DNA from: Burkholderia multivorans ATCC BAA-247
GTDB taxonomy: Bacteria > Pseudomonadota > Gammaproteobacteria > Burkholderiales > Burkholderiaceae
Direction of reading: 5' to 3'
Length of the DNA stretch: 64,000 nucleotides
NCBI RefSeq assembly: GCF_000959525.1
Contig: NZ_CP009832.1
Coordinates: forward strand, 62,001 to 126,000
Numbering within the stretch: position 1 is the first letter of the stretch; each line of letters opens with the position of its first letter. Under the pieces are notes generated by a model. It ran no database searches. It saw nothing but the letters and a program-made list of their open reading frames with translations, and was not told the DNA's origin. Both the position numbers and the translations under genes were made by a program. Of the stretch, positions 4,132-62,845 are shown in pieces.

Positions 4132-5238
4132 ATGATGAGCAACGATAACGAACGACGGATTCAGGAGCTGGCCCAGGCCGGCATGATGCCGTTCGCGATT
4201 CTCGAACCGCGTTACCCTCACGATGGTATCGGCGCCGCTCTGGTTGTGCGCGCGTCCCTGTACTTCAAAGGTGGGTACACCCGTGACAAACGCGACGCGC
4301 TTGCATGGGTCTTCGATCGGTATGTCGAGATCGCCCGTCAGGCGAGCGCCCCCAACACTGACCATCCATTGAGGTGGCTCTGGTTCAATGGTAAGAAGGC
4401 GCTTCCCCTTGCGAAAGCACCCGCGCTGTCAGCACTCGCATCCAGTGTCGGCGCAAACGAAGGTTTCGATGCAACTTTCGTCGGCGGCGAGACAGCGCGT
4501 GATGCATCTTTCTACGAATTCACAACTTTCTGCCTGGAACAGTTCCAGGCTGAACTCGGCACTCGGGGTCTCGACGTTCTAGTTTTCACGTTCCCGGCCC
4601 CTTTCGTCCGGACGAACCCGACTCCCTTCATACGACTCTTCCGCGATGCGGCCGCCGCTGTGGACGCGATCCACGGCCATGCCGGACTCGCGGTAAATCT
4701 GTCACCGACGAGCCGAACTGAAAACGAAAGCAGCGAATATCTTATGGCGCAGCAGCTCGGGCCCGGTGTCGACGTAGGTAGTCCAATTGCTATGAAAGTG
4801 CGTGACCTTACGGACAGAATCAAGACTGTCGACTGGCTCACCCTGATCGATAAGCCAATGCTGGCAAAGGTTGGCGGCATCGCCACGCTGCAATCCGCAC
4901 TACCGACAGACTGGTACGACTTAACGCCGTGCGCGCAAGGACTGTTGATCCGCGCGGGCACAATCCCCGAAGCCGGCGTGCAGGGAGCGACCGGCGCCCT
5001 GGCGCCACCACCGGCTTATGTCGTAGTCAACGCTGCTTTGCGCGCGATCGTTGCAGATACGGTTTCGATTCTTCAACGTGGCACGGCAAATGGAGACGCA
5101 CCGGTCTACAACACGCAGACCAGCAGTAACGCATGGCTCCGGCGATTCGACGTCTCTGAGAACGAATTGCTGAACGCCAAAGCGGCCGTGCTCGATACGC
5201 CGAAACTCCCCCCCCAGAGTCTAGTCACAAAGCAATAA
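4132..5238 (+). CDS. DUF3396 / type VI immunity family protein
   Basis: This 368-residue protein resembles the DUF3396 (type VI immunity) family. Recognisable segments are ALVVRASLYFKGGYT near the start, a central FVRTNPTPFIRLFRDAAA segment, and a late PTDWYDLTPCAQGLLIRAG segment. No signal peptide or membrane segment is seen, which fits a cytoplasmic protector against a nuclease. Two adjacent ATG codons (4132 and 4135) could start it. It lies 14 bp after the nuclease gene on the same strand, the standard order toxin then immunity. Specific inhibition of this nuclease is inferred from position, not from sequence. Confidence 0.75.
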   Translation: MMSNDNERRIQELAQAGMMPFAILEPRYPHDGIGAALVVRASLYFKGGYTRDKRDALAWVFDRYVEIARQASAPNTDHPLRWLWFNGKKALPLAKAPALSALASSVGANEGFDATFVGGETARDASFYEFTTFCLEQFQAELGTRGLDVLVFTFPAPFVRTNPTPFIRLFRDAAAAVDAIHGHAGLAVNLSPTSRTENESSEYLMAQQLGPGVDVGSPIAMKVRDLTDRIKTVDWLTLIDKPMLAKVGGIATLQSALPTDWYDLTPCAQGLLIRAGTIPEAGVQGATGALAPPPAYVVVNAALRAIVADTVSILQRGTANGDAPVYNTQTSSNAWLRRFDVSENELLNAKAAVLDTPKLPPQSLVTKQ

Positions 5239-35604: not shown

Positions 35605-38400
35605 ATGGCCTCGATCGACGAACTGAAACAACGCATCGACCTGCACGACCTCGCCGATCGCCTCGGTCTCAAGCGCGGCCGCGGCGGCAACAAGGCGCTC
35701 TACCACTCGCCGCAGCACGAGGACAAAAACCCGTCCCTGTCGATCTACGTGAATCACCCGAAGCATGGCACGGGCTGGCGCGATCACAGCGCCGGCGTCG
35801 GCGGCTCGTGCATCGATCTGGTCATATATGTGCGCGGCGGCACCGTCGCGGACGCTGTCCGCTACCTGCACGATGCGTACGGCATTCCGCTCGACCGGTC
35901 GGCGCCGACCGAGCGCCGTGAGAAAACGACCGTCGAATACATCGCCGATCGGTGCTTCGCGGAGCGCGACCAGGTCCGCGAATACCTCGGCGGCCGCGGC
36001 ATTTCGGCCGCGGCGATCGACGCCGCGATCGCCGCACGCACGCTCGGCTTCAACACGTGGACGAGCTCGAAAGTTGCCGCCGGCGAAGTCGGGCACGGCG
36101 GGCCGGCCGCCGCGTTCATCGTGCGGGCTCCGACCGACGGCCGCGTCGTCGCCGTCGACATGCGCTACGTGGATCCCGCACTGAACGGCGGCGTCAAAAC
36201 GCAGACGCAGGGCGACAAGGCGGGCTACGGCTGGACCGCGGATCCCCGGCGACTGGAGAAGGCGAAGCGCGTATTCATCGTCGAAAGCGCGATCAACGCG
36301 CTGTCGATCGACACGTGTGCTCTGCCCGGCGCGGCCGCGCTCGCGCTGCGCGGCCTCGGCAACGTTGACGCGCTGGACTTCACTCTGCTGCGAGGCAAGC
36401 AGGTTGTGGTCTGCATGGACAACGACGAGCCATTCGCTGACGGCCATCCGCGCGCCGGCCACCGTCCCGGCCCCGAAGCAGCGTGGGCGCTCTACGAACG
36501 GCTCACCGCCTTGAACATCAGCGCCGTGCTCGTCGACCAGGCTGACTGGCTCGCCGACCTCGCGGACGGGGAGAAGCAGCAGAAGCCCATCAACGACGTC
36601 AACGACTACCTGCAGCTGCGCGGCCCGCTCGAACTCGCGCGTGCGCTCGAGCAGCTGGAGCCGTGGCTGATCGCCGGCCTCGCCGGCGACGCCACACGCC
36701 GCGGCCGGCCGCGCATCTCTCTGCCGCCGCACGACTTCGCACAGTACTGGCGCTTCCGCGTGCGACCCGACTTCACCAGCTACATCACGAAGATGGACCG
36801 CAACGAGGAATCGGGCGTCGAGACACCGGTGATGACGGATCTGTGCGGTTTCCGCATCGCCGGCATGAGCCGCGTGTCGGTCGCGAGTGCGACATCGACG
36901 ATGACGGGCGACGCCGACCAGGCGCCGACTGTGTACTTCGCCGTGTCGGTGCAGGCGCCGCGCCACGGCGCGCAGCTCATTCGCCGCGTGATGCTCGACG
37001 ACCAACTGCACAACGTCGACCAGTGGGGCAAGTTCGGCCCGATCTGGGCGCCGGCGCCGTTCAAGCGCATGGTCAATATCCTGGAGCGCGGCGCCGACCT
37101 CGGTGCGCGGCAGGCCGCGAATTTCGTGGGGCTCGCGTGGCGCGAGGGCCGGCTCATCGTCAACGAAGGCCCGGATTGCTACTTCACCGAAGCGGACAAG
37201 CAGTGTCCGTATCACAACCTCACGTTCCCGAGCGGCCCGATCAGTGACGCGCGCCGCGTCATCAGCGCCTACCAGACAACGTTCAAACAGAACGCCGCGA
37301 CGATCCCGCTCGTCTGGGCGCTCGGCGGTCATCTGAAGGCACTGCTCGGCTTCTGGCCGCATATCACGATCCAGGCGAACAAGGGCGCTGGCAAATCGAC
37401 GCTCATCAAGCGTCTGGAACGGTCGCTCGCGTTCACGATGTTCTCGGGCCAGTCGCTGCAGACCGAATTCCGCCTGCTGACCAGCATCAGCCATACGAGC
37501 CATCCGGTCGGCTGGGAAGAACTGTCGGCACGCCGGCAGGACGTGATCGACAAGGCGGTCGGCCTGCTGCAGGAAAACTATCAGTACACCGTCACGCGCC
37601 GCGGCGCGGACATGACCGAATACCTGCTGTGCGCGCCGGTGATGCTCGCCGGCGAGGACGTGCCCGTGCGCAGCCTGCTCGGCAAGCTCGTACGCACGAC
37701 GCTCACCGGCAAGCGCGGCCCGCTGCTGCCCGACGACCTGCCGCGCTTTCCGGTACGGCAGTGGCTCGAATTTCTCGCCGGGCTCGACAAGCGCGCCGTG
37801 CTCGACCAGTACGCGATGCTGCGCGACAAGGCGTTGGCCAACTGCCGCGCGAGCGGTGAGGACGACGGCGCGAAACGCATGGCCGGCAACTATGCGGCCG
37901 TCGCGCTCGCCTGGCGCTACCTGTGCGAGTTCGCCGGCATGGATCCGACGGAAGGCGACTTCCCGCGCGATCTGCTCGCTGAAATGAACGGCCACATCGC
38001 CGAGACGAGCGCCGACCGGGAACCTTGGGTCTGGATCATGGAAACCGTGCTGTCGGAAATCGACGGCGGCAACTACAAGCACCCGTACACGTTCGACATG
38101 GTCGACGGCGAGTTCTGCCTACTGCTGCGCACCGGGCACGTGATGGACCACATCGCGCACACGAGCGCGCTGCGCGACAAATGGAACGCCCTGCCGGTGA
38201 AGTCGGACCGCGTGTTCAAGGCGCAACTCAAGCACGCCGGCGTCGTGGTTGGCGAGAAGGAAGTCGAGCGGCGCATCTATACCCGTCGCGTGCCGTACCT
38301 CACGCCGATCTCGCTCGAGCGCCTGGCCGGCTTCGGGCTGCACGTGTCGGTTCGCGAAGATCTGGCGACCGACGCGGCCGAGCAACGAGGCAGCGCATGA
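35605..38400 (+). CDS. Phage replication primase-helicase (CHC2-like, Toprim, ATPase)
   Basis: This 931-residue protein has three parts. Residues 5-90 resemble a CHC2 primase zinc-binding domain, but the metal-binding cysteines are missing: the usual C-P-x-H reads YHSPQHED, so zinc binding is doubtful. A Toprim domain follows at about 215-330, with the glutamate at 227 (VESAIN) and the acidic DNDE at 272-275. From about residue 560 there is an ATPase with Walker A GAGKST at 594-599 and acidic VGWEELSARRQDVID, resembling a helicase. It replaces the rolling-circle protein gpA of P2, so this phage probably replicates by a theta-type, P4-like mode. Iteron-like repeats lie directly downstream. Confidence 0.85.
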   Translation: MASIDELKQRIDLHDLADRLGLKRGRGGNKALYHSPQHEDKNPSLSIYVNHPKHGTGWRDHSAGVGGSCIDLVIYVRGGTVADAVRYLHDAYGIPLDRSAPTERREKTTVEYIADRCFAERDQVREYLGGRGISAAAIDAAIAARTLGFNTWTSSKVAAGEVGHGGPAAAFIVRAPTDGRVVAVDMRYVDPALNGGVKTQTQGDKAGYGWTADPRRLEKAKRVFIVESAINALSIDTCALPGAAALALRGLGNVDALDFTLLRGKQVVVCMDNDEPFADGHPRAGHRPGPEAAWALYERLTALNISAVLVDQADWLADLADGEKQQKPINDVNDYLQLRGPLELARALEQLEPWLIAGLAGDATRRGRPRISLPPHDFAQYWRFRVRPDFTSYITKMDRNEESGVETPVMTDLCGFRIAGMSRVSVASATSTMTGDADQAPTVYFAVSVQAPRHGAQLIRRVMLDDQLHNVDQWGKFGPIWAPAPFKRMVNILERGADLGARQAANFVGLAWREGRLIVNEGPDCYFTEADKQCPYHNLTFPSGPISDARRVISAYQTTFKQNAATIPLVWALGGHLKALLGFWPHITIQANKGAGKSTLIKRLERSLAFTMFSGQSLQTEFRLLTSISHTSHPVGWEELSARRQDVIDKAVGLLQENYQYTVTRRGADMTEYLLCAPVMLAGEDVPVRSLLGKLVRTTLTGKRGPLLPDDLPRFPVRQWLEFLAGLDKRAVLDQYAMLRDKALANCRASGEDDGAKRMAGNYAAVALAWRYLCEFAGMDPTEGDFPRDLLAEMNGHIAETSADREPWVWIMETVLSEIDGGNYKHPYTFDMVDGEFCLLLRTGHVMDHIAHTSALRDKWNALPVKSDRVFKAQLKHAGVVVGEKEVERRIYTRRVPYLTPISLERLAGFGLHVSVREDLATDAAEQRGSA

Positions 38401-38964
38401 TGCCCTGCCAGCCAATGCGGCCGCCGTGCTGCACGCTGCCCCCGTCTCCCTCGCAAGTCGAACCTGCCGGGTGAAAGCGCGGGCCTCAATGAAAGCGGGC
38501 CGCGCGAGCCGTTTTTTCCACCGGGAAGGGGCAGGCAGCGCACGCGAACCGTGGTTTTCGGGGGCGTCCGCTCGTAAGTCTTTGATTGTTGAGAAGAGTA
38601 CCGCCGTGTGTCGCCCTCCATTCGCCACTAGTCGGGGCGTTTTTGCCACTAGTCCGATTTTCGCGCCGACGCCCCCCGTGCCTTCATCTCTTCTCTCTAA
38701 TTCATTGAAAAAGAAGAGAAAAGAAAGCAGGGAAGAAGCAATAAAAGGCCTGAATCGAGCGCCACGAGTCTTGGGCTTTTTGCCACGGGTTTCCGCCTGT
38801 GCCTATTTTTTGAGCCACGAGTTTTCAGGCCCATCCACGGGTAACTCATGGCAATTGATGGCAAAAAATCTATTTATAAATCAGTGCGTTACACCAAAAA
38901 CCAGCGCAAACCACGAATCCACGAGTTGCGCTGCGTGTGGTTCCTTTTTGTGACAGTGATTGCG
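38401..38964. other. Non-coding region with repeats and A+T-rich stretches
   Basis: This 564-bp gap has a marked drop in G+C from about 38690. It holds eight short CCAC-type repeats, purine- and A+T-rich runs (38690-38750 and 38860-38895) and the palindrome ATTTATAAAT near 38872. No gene is recognised. It is the best candidate for the replication origin. Confidence 0.55.
38625..38927 (+). repeat. Eight CCAC(G/T)RRT(C/T/A) direct repeats, candidate iterons
   Basis: Copies start at 38625, 38646, 38762, 38783, 38815, 38835, 38911 and 38919, all on the same strand. Variants are CCACTAGTC (2), CCACGAGTC, CCACGGGTT, CCACGAGTT (2), CCACGGGTA and CCACGAATC. Several start-to-start distances are 20, 21, 21 and 32 bp, close to whole DNA turns, as in iteron arrays bound by replication proteins. 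Confidence 0.6.
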
Positions 38965-39288
38965 ATGCAGAATCTTGACCAGGCACCGTCGAGCTTTCGC
39001 TACGACGCAGCAAACGTGTTGCCACCTTTTCTCACTGATGCCGAGCTACGTCGAATCGCCGAGCCGCTGCGCCAACCGGCCGCGATTATGCGGTGGTTCA
39101 AGCGAGCGGGTTTTGAGGTGAAAAAGAAACCGAACGGAATGCCGCTCGTGTCGCGCGCGCATTTCGAGCAAGTCATGTGCGGACGAGCAGTCGCAAGCGA
39201 TATCGATCGCGGCACGGGTGATTGCTCGCCGGATACCGCTGCATTGCTACAACGGTTCGCACGCAGCAACAAGAAGAAGGCAAATTAA
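38965..39288 (+). CDS. DUF4224 protein, possible excisionase
   Basis: This 107-residue protein of the DUF4224 family is recognised from FLTDAELRRIAEPLRQPAAIMRWFKRAGFEV and PNGMPLVSRAHFEQVM. The family has a MerR/excisionase-like winged helix pattern and is very often encoded directly before a phage integrase. Its stop codon is immediately followed by the integrase ATG. The start at 38965 matches the family N-terminus; upstream open sequence contains the repeats and is not counted as coding. A role as recombination directionality factor is inferred from position. Confidence 0.75.
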   Translation: MQNLDQAPSSFRYDAANVLPPFLTDAELRRIAEPLRQPAAIMRWFKRAGFEVKKKPNGMPLVSRAHFEQVMCGRAVASDIDRGTGDCSPDTAALLQRFARSNKKKAN

Positions 39289-40368
39289 ATGGGGCGCAAA
39301 CGAAAAAGTAACGAATTGGGACTGCCAGACCGGGTCTACCCGAAACATGGCGCGTTTTACTACGTGCATCGCGACGGGCGCTGGGAACGCCTTGGAACTG
39401 ATCTGGCTGAGGCGAAACGAAAAGGCAATCTGTACAACGACCCTGATTCGACCTACGGCACAATGTCTTACTTCCTTGACGAATTCGTCGTGCATTGCGA
39501 GAAGCGGGTACAGCTCGGCTACCTCAAGCCCCGAACGTACGAGGACTATAAGCGGGACGTCGAACCGCTGAAGGTCTACTTCGGCCGCATGACGCCGGCC
39601 AGCGTCGAACCGAAACATGTCGGTGCCTATCTCGACCTGTGCGCGGAAAACGGTCGTCCGGTCCGCGGCAATCGCGAGAAAGCTTGCTTGTCGTCATGCT
39701 TCACCTGGCTTATTCGAACCGGCAAGGGGAGCGTTAAGCTGAACCCGTGCCTTGGCGTCAAACGGAACAAGGAAACGAAGCGAGAAAGGTATGTCGAACA
39801 CGACGAGTATCGAGCCGTGTGGGCGGTCGCGGCACCTCAAGTACGCGGCCTGCTTGATCTGACATATCGAACGCTGCAGCGCCCAGAGGACATTATCGCG
39901 TGGGGACCGGCGAACATCGTTCAGAAGCGCGAGCCGGACGGGTCAGTACGCCGCGTAATCCGCAACGACCAGGGTAAAACCGGCGCCATCGTCGACATCG
40001 CCGTAACACCCGAAATCGACGCAATTCTGAACTATCTGAAGGCTACCGGTCCCACCCCCGGGCCTGGGACAACGTGGATTCGCAAGCGCAACGGCGAACC
40101 TTACAGTTACTCCGGGCTCACATCAATGCTGCACCGTTACATCGCGAAGGTGAACCGCGCTCGCGAAACGAAGGGGCTTACTCCGTTTCAGTCGTTCGGA
40201 CCTTACGACATGAAAGCAAAGGGGGCAACAGATATGTGGCTCTCTGGCGTGCCGCTCGAGCGCATCCAGGTATTGTGTGGGCACGACTCCGTGACGACGA
40301 CTGAAATTTACGTCAAGTGCCGATGGCGAGGCACGGTCGAGCCCAACCGGCAGCACGCGGCCGTCTAA
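39289..40368 (+). CDS. int: Tyrosine recombinase / phage integrase
   Basis: This 359-residue integrase has an N-terminal arm-binding part and a SAM-like core-binding domain (about 65-160). The catalytic domain carries the first Arg in DLTYRTLQRPED and the second His in LCGHDSVTTTEIYVK with the Tyr nucleophile seven residues on. The usual HxxR box II is replaced by YDMK in PYDMKAKGATDMW, a deviation seen in one branch of phage integrases. It reads toward attR, and its stop codon lies inside one of the TATTAGAC sites. Confidence 0.93.
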   Translation: MGRKRKSNELGLPDRVYPKHGAFYYVHRDGRWERLGTDLAEAKRKGNLYNDPDSTYGTMSYFLDEFVVHCEKRVQLGYLKPRTYEDYKRDVEPLKVYFGRMTPASVEPKHVGAYLDLCAENGRPVRGNREKACLSSCFTWLIRTGKGSVKLNPCLGVKRNKETKRERYVEHDEYRAVWAVAAPQVRGLLDLTYRTLQRPEDIIAWGPANIVQKREPDGSVRRVIRNDQGKTGAIVDIAVTPEIDAILNYLKATGPTPGPGTTWIRKRNGEPYSYSGLTSMLHRYIAKVNRARETKGLTPFQSFGPYDMKAKGATDMWLSGVPLERIQVLCGHDSVTTTEIYVKCRWRGTVEPNRQHAAV

Positions 40369-40486: not shown

Positions 40487-40534
40487 GGACTCTTAATCCG
40501 TAGGTCGAGTGTTCGAGTCACTCACGCCCCACCA
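40487..40534 (+). repeat. attR: 48-bp attachment core
   Basis: Perfect copy of 2647-2694 without the 5' part of the tRNA, so it is not a tRNA gene. It marks the right end of the prophage. Confidence 0.95.
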
Positions 40535-62649: not shown

Positions 62650-62845
62650 CGTAACCTCGCACTCTCGAGTGTAGACGGTGCCCACTTTAGGCGCCGGCAC
62701 GTACAGTCGCGCGCCGAATCTTGCGCTGTCATCCGCGGCGCAAATCGGGGCCGCAAGCGACGCCGCCTGTCATCGCGCCGTCACAATTTTGCTGCACTGC
62801 GGGTGCGACAAAACGCCGTCCTGACGTTTTTTTACACACACGATA

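Follow-up and report, generated by a model that had tools for sequence, protein, structure and literature searches.

The window analyzed here, a 64,000-nucleotide stretch of Burkholderia multivorans ATCC BAA-247 (contig NZ_CP009832.1, positions 62,001 to 126,000), contains a P2-type prophage of 37.8 kb, which is bounded on each side by a 48-bp copy of the tRNA-Lys 3' end and whose named relatives belong to the Peduoviridae, the family with P2-like morphogenesis. Our subject is an array of short repeats that follows the primase-helicase gene of this prophage, considered together with the encoded protein as a candidate replication origin and its initiator.

A Repeat Array Behind the Primase-Helicase Gene

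The gene and the sites of the array lie at the following positions of the window:

35605..38400, forward strand: 931-residue primase-helicase (Pfam, PHROG 5629, AlphaFold, Foldseek, VIA-align)
37987..38379, forward strand: C-terminal winged-helix-like domain (about residues 795-925), proposed reader of the array (structure models)
38293..38298, forward strand: wing-strand codons for P897 and Y898; motif base 3 is tracked by 897, and base 6 by 898 together with 897
38546..38554, reverse strand: site Sx, inverted, CCACGGTTC (a type-matched inverted site lies there in 65 of 70 representative relatives)
38604..38612, forward strand: site S0, CCGTGTGTC, degenerate in this copy (comparison with relatives)
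38625..38633, forward strand: site S1 (motif match, relatives)
38646..38654, forward strand: site S2 (motif match, relatives)
38762..38770, forward strand: site S3 (motif match, relatives)
38783..38791, forward strand: site S4 (motif match, relatives)
38815..38823, forward strand: site S5 (motif match, relatives)
38835..38843, forward strand: site S6 (motif match, relatives)
38843..38851, reverse strand: site S7, inverted, CCATGAGTT (comparison with relatives)
38853..38861, reverse strand: site S8, inverted, CCATCAATT (comparison with relatives)
38911..38919, forward strand: site S9 (motif match, relatives)
38919..38927, forward strand: site S10, sharing one base with S9 (shortly past it, the DNA is no longer similar to that of the named phages)

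The original prediction reported eight exact forward copies of CCAC(G/T)RRT(C/T/A), and all eight were recovered, with starts at 38625, 38646, 38762, 38783, 38815, 38835, 38911, and 38919 and start-to-start spacings of 21, 116, 21, 32, 20, 76, and 8 bp. The 600 nt behind the primase thus hold 8 copies, compared with a mean of 0.04 and a maximum of 2 after dinucleotide shuffling (8 reached in 0 of 5000 shuffles), and in the whole 6.32-Mb genome motif pairs 5-30 nt apart occurred four times, all inside the array, against one occurrence for a backward control pattern. The array is nevertheless larger than first described, with 12 sites, of which nine are forward and three inverted, placed at near-fixed spacings, several of which (21, 21, 116, 21, 32, and 20 bp) are near whole helical turns. 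The four added sites are S0, forward at 38604, and three inverted sites with first bases at 38851, 38861, and 38554; in relatives, their third base changes together with that of the other sites. The array had been placed directly behind the replication gene, and it does follow the primase, but the first reported copy begins 224 bp after the primase stop codon.

The G+C content (GC) is 47-49% in windows covering 38600-38999, compared with 64-71% in windows across 37500-38499. The description of the stretch as non-coding is borne out by comparison, in which only 33 of 120 arrays had a best reading frame without stops across the core, and a hidden gene over the array was rejected on that count. 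An open reading frame is annotated over the array in six phage records (Milagro, Mana, AP3, Momento, Menos, and Musica); the deposited products are hypothetical, membrane, or baseplate proteins, and a shared gene there has no support from the comparison.

In structure models, the 931-residue protein resembles a primase of DnaG type, with zinc ribbon and Toprim domain, joined to a helicase like that of Cch and SaPIbov1 Rep. By Foldseek and VIA-align, the N-terminal half came closest to the fold of DnaG primase and the helicase half to those of SCCmec Cch and SaPIbov1 Rep; the helicase half matches the MCM-like helicase fold of those initiators. Pfam recognized Toprim, with the zinc ribbon slightly below the cut-off, and returned no D5/P4-type domain at E up to 0.1. 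For the C-terminal domain, the best rows of the comparison were the C-terminus of SaPIbov1 Rep and TcpK; a sequence-profile search of this domain against the PDB gave only a weak match to an unrelated protein (E 0.058) and was set aside.

Conservation of the Array in Related Phages

Loss of the repeats from related phages had been named beforehand as an outcome that would refute the origin reading; the repeats proved to be conserved. Alignment with the window showed the array in the same place behind the primase in nine loci of named phages, and the same array accompanies the same primase-helicase in KS5, KL3, AP3, KS14, and others, as well as in loci of other bacterial families. One survey of relatives listed 136 distinct downstream regions, and three further scans of viral contigs brought the sample to 289 loci with the primase C-terminus, 194 of them with the array; 187 of these had enough protein for comparison, giving 121 distinct primase-array pairs. 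Twenty arrays found later with a relaxed anchor were kept out of this set. A scan with locus L203 as query added one new locus, which is truncated, and a plasmid search returned a single record, a 2.4-Mb replicon of B. multivorans.

Register was measured relative to a conserved TAAGTC.TTGATT element, from which the forward sites begin at +29, +50, +71, +187, +208, +240, +260, approximately +336, and approximately +344. Two inverted sites lie at +276 and +286, and the further inverted site at -20 to -22 in the same 65 of 70 representatives. The strict motif was present at the first seven forward positions in 47, 60, 53, 43, 44, 43, and 24 of the 70 representatives, respectively, and at the two downstream inverted positions in 26 and 34, and one-base-off neighbours add to the later sites. 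The anchor, an integration host factor (IHF) site, lies at most 0.8 kb behind the primase in 90 of the 121 pairs and 0.8 kb or more downstream in 31, and the array is found behind the primase in differing gene orders and independently of the integrase.

Further conserved elements flank or interrupt the sites:

38575..38587, reverse strand: IHF-consensus site 1, exact match to WATCAANNNNTTR, conserved
38681..38735, no strand assigned: polypyrimidine/polypurine inverted repeat, A+T-rich and conserved, a possible unwinding or hairpin element
38801..38811, forward strand: GCCTATTTTTT element (conservation in relatives)
38879..38891, forward strand: IHF-like site 2, one mismatch in this copy, in an A+T-rich stretch

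Sites 1 and 2 are named after the IHF consensus. The TAAGTC.TTGATT element is an exact minus-strand match to it in 94 of 95 arrays, and 49 of the 95 carry an exact forward match as well, against an expectation of 0.003 per region; these arrays were picked by motif counts and not by the TAAGTC element, except at loci L121 and L127. Where both sites are exact, they lie 303-304 bp apart in most cases (25 of the 35 such pairs in the 70 representatives). Two A+T-rich peaks lie within the array, one at the polypyrimidine/polypurine inverted repeat and the other at IHF site 2. When folded with an RNA model, the inverted repeat is stabler than mononucleotide shuffles (mean z -2.4 over the 70 representatives, 64% of them below -2). 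The sole exact DnaA box (TTWTNCACA) within the window is at 62830, with none at the array.

Two Wing Residues Track Two Bases of the Motif

The third base of the motif differs among relatives. In AP3 and Momento it is C rather than A on both strands, and in KS14-like phages it is T (CCTC). Among 66 arrays, A and C types separated perfectly at nine of 11 sites and at 0.95-0.99 at the other two. Each locus took its type from the majority third base at S0-S2 and S5, and across the 121 pairs this type follows residue 897 of the primase-helicase: A accompanies Pro (48/48), Ala (21/21), Ser (11/11), Asn (4/4), and Thr (1/1), C accompanies Arg (22/23), and T accompanies Gln (6/6), while Gly is mixed (5 A, 1 C, and 1 mixed among 7 pairs), such that 113 of 114 non-glycine pairs obey the rule. 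Similarly, at single sites in nine fixed registers, C was found with Arg in 158 of 169 cases, A with Pro in 386 of 397, Ala in 122 of 132, Ser in 35 of 35, Asn in 23 of 23, and Thr in 7 of 7, and T with Gln in 18 of 21; with Gly the counts were 16 A, 5 C, 5 G, and 3 T.

Among the 805 columns scored (12 of 931 were skipped for gaps and the remainder were invariant), residue 897 ranked first for base 3 both by its share of the label information (0.89; runner-up 0.56) and by symmetric uncertainty (0.53; next residue 842 with 0.49). It again ranked first on both measures in the 70 representatives (0.82 and 0.44; next 0.52 and 0.39). At the nucleotide level, we compared 94 typed, non-identical primases above 72% identity (78 A-type and 16 C-type); the columns parting the types at more than 0.97 were all non-synonymous and confined to codons 819, 821, 842, and 897. 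Residue 842 had appeared equally decisive in the first set (R in 78/78, N in 16/16), but it was dropped as a determinant because distant phages with Arg897 and R842 or Q842 still carry CCCC; Arg897 pairs with C in three residue-842 backgrounds (N, R, and Q). The rule also spans close and distant relatives: one primase 97% identical to that of the window has both a C-type array and C-type residues, the distant Paraburkholderia lycopersici locus has Gln842 and Arg897 with a C-type array 2.9 kb behind the primase, and KS14 and FLC10 have Gln897 with a CCTC array about 2.6 kb behind it. Read on the complementary strand, the partners become G for Arg and A for Gln, which are classical chemical pairings.

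Residue 898 behaves similarly with respect to base 6, for which it ranked first by symmetric uncertainty (0.55, against 0.44 for residue 897): Tyr occurs with A in 70 of 70 pairs, His with G in 29 of 41, and Asn with G in 8 of 8. Sequence covariation of this kind suggests that residues 897 and 898, in the wing of the C-terminal winged helix, read bases of the motif. Mutual information between protein and site columns has likewise picked out contacts in the MerR family (PMC5045206).

The changes have occurred repeatedly. On a tree of the 70 representatives built from primase residues 1-780 only, leaving out the C-terminal domain, the C label requires nine changes, eight of them forced by well-supported branches, and in eight independent pairs the residue moves the same way in about seven and the opposite way in none (median p 0.016, range to 0.031). 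Much of the type switching seen within Burkholderia must be recombination that carried the 3' end of the gene along with its array, while the L203-type, P. lycopersici, and KS14-type cases represent more distant lineages. The two loci of Burkholderia pseudomultivorans LMG 26883 differ from one another in their wing residues, one having A-H with CCACGGGT and the other P-Y with CCACGAGT.

A Probable Replication Origin and Its Initiator

The array, its geometry and conservation, the coordinated change of its sites, and the residue-base covariation are direct observations, and from them we infer that the stretch 38546-38927 is very likely the replication origin of this P2-type prophage, served by the adjacent primase-helicase. 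The covariation, its location in the wing, and the failure of integrases to track the motif indicate that the primase-helicase itself very probably binds the array. The code we propose would have residue 897 set base 3 (Arg for C, Gln for T, small residues or Pro for A, Gly tolerant) and residue 898 set base 6 (Tyr for A, His or Asn mostly for G). More broadly, these two adjacent wing residues of a fused primase/MCM-like initiator may form a modular origin code that has been switched several times between close relatives, presumably preventing cross-firing among co-resident prophages or origin-borrowing elements, a proposal that we regard as equally likely to prove right or wrong.

In the working envisaged here, the C-terminal winged-helix domain would bind each of the twelve CCNC sites, residue 897 reading base 3 and residue 898 base 6, and IHF would bend the DNA at one or two flanking sites to give a compact complex. 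The MCM-like helicase half could then assemble at the array as one ring or two, an A+T-rich element (around 38681-38735 or 38862-38895) would open, and the fused DnaG-type primase would lay the first primers for the host polymerase, placing the presumed start of replication at the array.

The idea that the prophage, which lacks P2 gpA, uses an iteron-type origin together with the adjacent 931-residue protein is supported: the repeats are conserved, and the window's genome has no match to Phage_GPA (PF05840), a family matched in 2 of 14 control genomes. Consistent with this, the comparison table for KS5, KS14, and KL3 gives no counterpart of P2 A or B (PMC3091744).

Several observations weigh against this interpretation. 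The C-terminal domain alone gave zero Foldseek matches at E 0.001. By the first anchor, 95 of the 289 loci have no array; by the relaxed anchor, an array is also missing from three loci with Arg897 primases (L198, L219, and L290) and from most relatives below 60% identity. The exception to the base-3 rule, L071, combines Arg897 and N842 with a CCAC array, and its primase match starts at residue 33. Moreover, the code was discovered and tested on the same loci: the 20 relaxed-anchor arrays agree with it but are all A-type, several had been typed before, and at least one (L137) looks spurious; the Pro897 loci L341, L324, and L363, also outside the 121 pairs, agree and are again all A-type; and L339 (Arg897, CCCC) comes from a new genome, but its array duplicates one already in the set. 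For base 6, residue 897 carries more label information (0.74) than residue 898 (0.64), so the two are not cleanly parted, and the best columns for bases 4, 8, and 9 (302, 806, and 730, with scores of 0.18, 0.38, and 0.43) lie outside the wing and give a measure of family background. GC skew is uninformative, since the cumulative skew declines along most of the prophage and its minimum near 38.2 kb says little.

The foremost alternative, which we consider unlikely, is that the primase-helicase binds the array as a control element that serves in silencing, handcuffing, or the control of copy number, with the start of replication at another place. The many sites on both strands and the inverted cluster S6-S8 would suit such a role, as would the situation in KS14, where a separate RepB and a second set of repeats occur alongside this array; P4 has a second element of this kind, crr. 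However, the paired motif in the window's genome is confined to this one array, which carries the IHF-consensus sites and A+T-rich elements usual in origins and stays behind the primase across gene orders, including the 31 of 121 pairs with the longer distance. KS14 is a plasmid prophage with its own RepB (PMC3091744); its plasmid origin may be the RepB one, and its retention of the array suits a role in lytic replication. In the KS14 record (NC_015273), AACCGGGG-type repeats lie beside the RepB gene at about 4540-4680, giving two candidate origins in one plasmid prophage.

Mere linkage, in which the primase 3' end and the array are co-inherited and another protein binds the sites, appears improbable. 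In its favour, primase and array are close neighbours in most pairs (the 90 of 121 noted above), the type has moved between otherwise similar primases within Burkholderia, and all loci were collected through the primase, the shared gene that the column comparison covers. Linkage does not, however, account for types that are parted only by non-synonymous columns, for a rule that holds in distant lineages and with the array 2-3.7 kb away, for the chemically expected pairings of Arg with G and Gln with A, or for the adjacency in the wing of the best residues for two motif bases.

The integrase side of the locus bears on the last alternative:

39289..40368, forward strand: tyrosine integrase, unrelated or distant to the integrases behind the same array in other phages, which served as a control
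40487..40534, no strand assigned: one of the two 48-bp attachment-site repeats that copy the tRNA-Lys 3' end (the other at 2647-2694), lying 1.56 kb away from the array

That the repeats are integrase or excisionase arm sites is scarcely credible: although xis and int are next to the array and attP commonly contains IHF sites, the attachment core lies 1.56 kb away behind int, the sites neither follow the integrase nor flank the core, and integrases do not track the motif, those of AP3 (CCCC) and Musica (CCAC) being 95% identical and those of AP3 and Mana 97%, while the window and Milagro have the same motif but integrases without real similarity to each other, and KS14 has the array with no integrase annotated in the KS14 stretches seen.

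Relation to Known Initiators

The original prediction likened the origin to that of P4, a comparison that is not supported and that, on the evidence of the structure models, should probably be replaced by one with SaPIbov1 Rep/Cch, given the DnaG and Cch/SaPIbov1 Rep folds and the lack of a D5/P4-type domain. The P4 type I iteron had two matches with at most one mismatch in the 64 kb, none near the array, against a chance mean of 3.6. The alpha protein of P4, which acts with ori and crr and joins primase, helicase, and iteron binding in one protein, is similar in that respect, but its helicase and primase types appear to differ from those of the prophage protein. P2 itself shares the morphogenesis family and differs in its gpA origin.

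For SaPI Rep and SCCmec Cch2, the iterons bound by the protein lie immediately downstream of the gene that encodes it (PMC7581432). SaPIbov1 Rep is like the prophage protein in its MCM-like helicase fold and in having iterons directly downstream of the initiator gene, but the SaPI primase is a separate protein of the archaeo-eukaryotic primase (AEP) type (PMC7581432), whereas the prophage has a DnaG-type primase fused to the helicase; SaPIbov1 is, moreover, a Staphylococcus aureus pathogenicity island, while here the host differs, the element is a P2-type phage, and the array has 12 sites. SCCmec Cch2 belongs to another helicase branch (Primase_Cterm), has three AAGTG iterons, and is without a fused DnaG primase (PMC7581432). 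TcpK of plasmid pCW3 is a dimeric relaxosome accessory protein and not a helicase, and its likeness to the C-terminal domain may be one of fold alone.

Taken together, these comparisons point to a likely origin and initiator for the P2-type phage group of KS5, KL3, AP3, KS14, and their kin. No origin is named for KS5, KS14, and KL3 in the available part of their genome paper (PMC3091744) or for AP3 in that of its own (PMC5247547), and literature searches gave none for phages of this type among the matches listed. The SaPI/SCC type of initiator helicase would thereby extend to tailed phages with a fused DnaG primase, and the residue-base code would be a new and directly testable rule for origin reading by an initiator helicase, for which natural proteins of all three specificities exist.

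The Microcystis phage vB_MaeS-yong1 has a 55% identical primase-helicase and no recognised array in the 2.4 kb behind it. A same-genus genome (G006) has two further places with the primase C-terminus alone (L363, C1:192651-193160, and L364, C1:438871-439305), either of which may be a deleted prophage or an element borrowing the origin. At L363, the C-terminus is fused to a frame that resembles the start of a P2-type capsid scaffold gene, and is then followed by an array.
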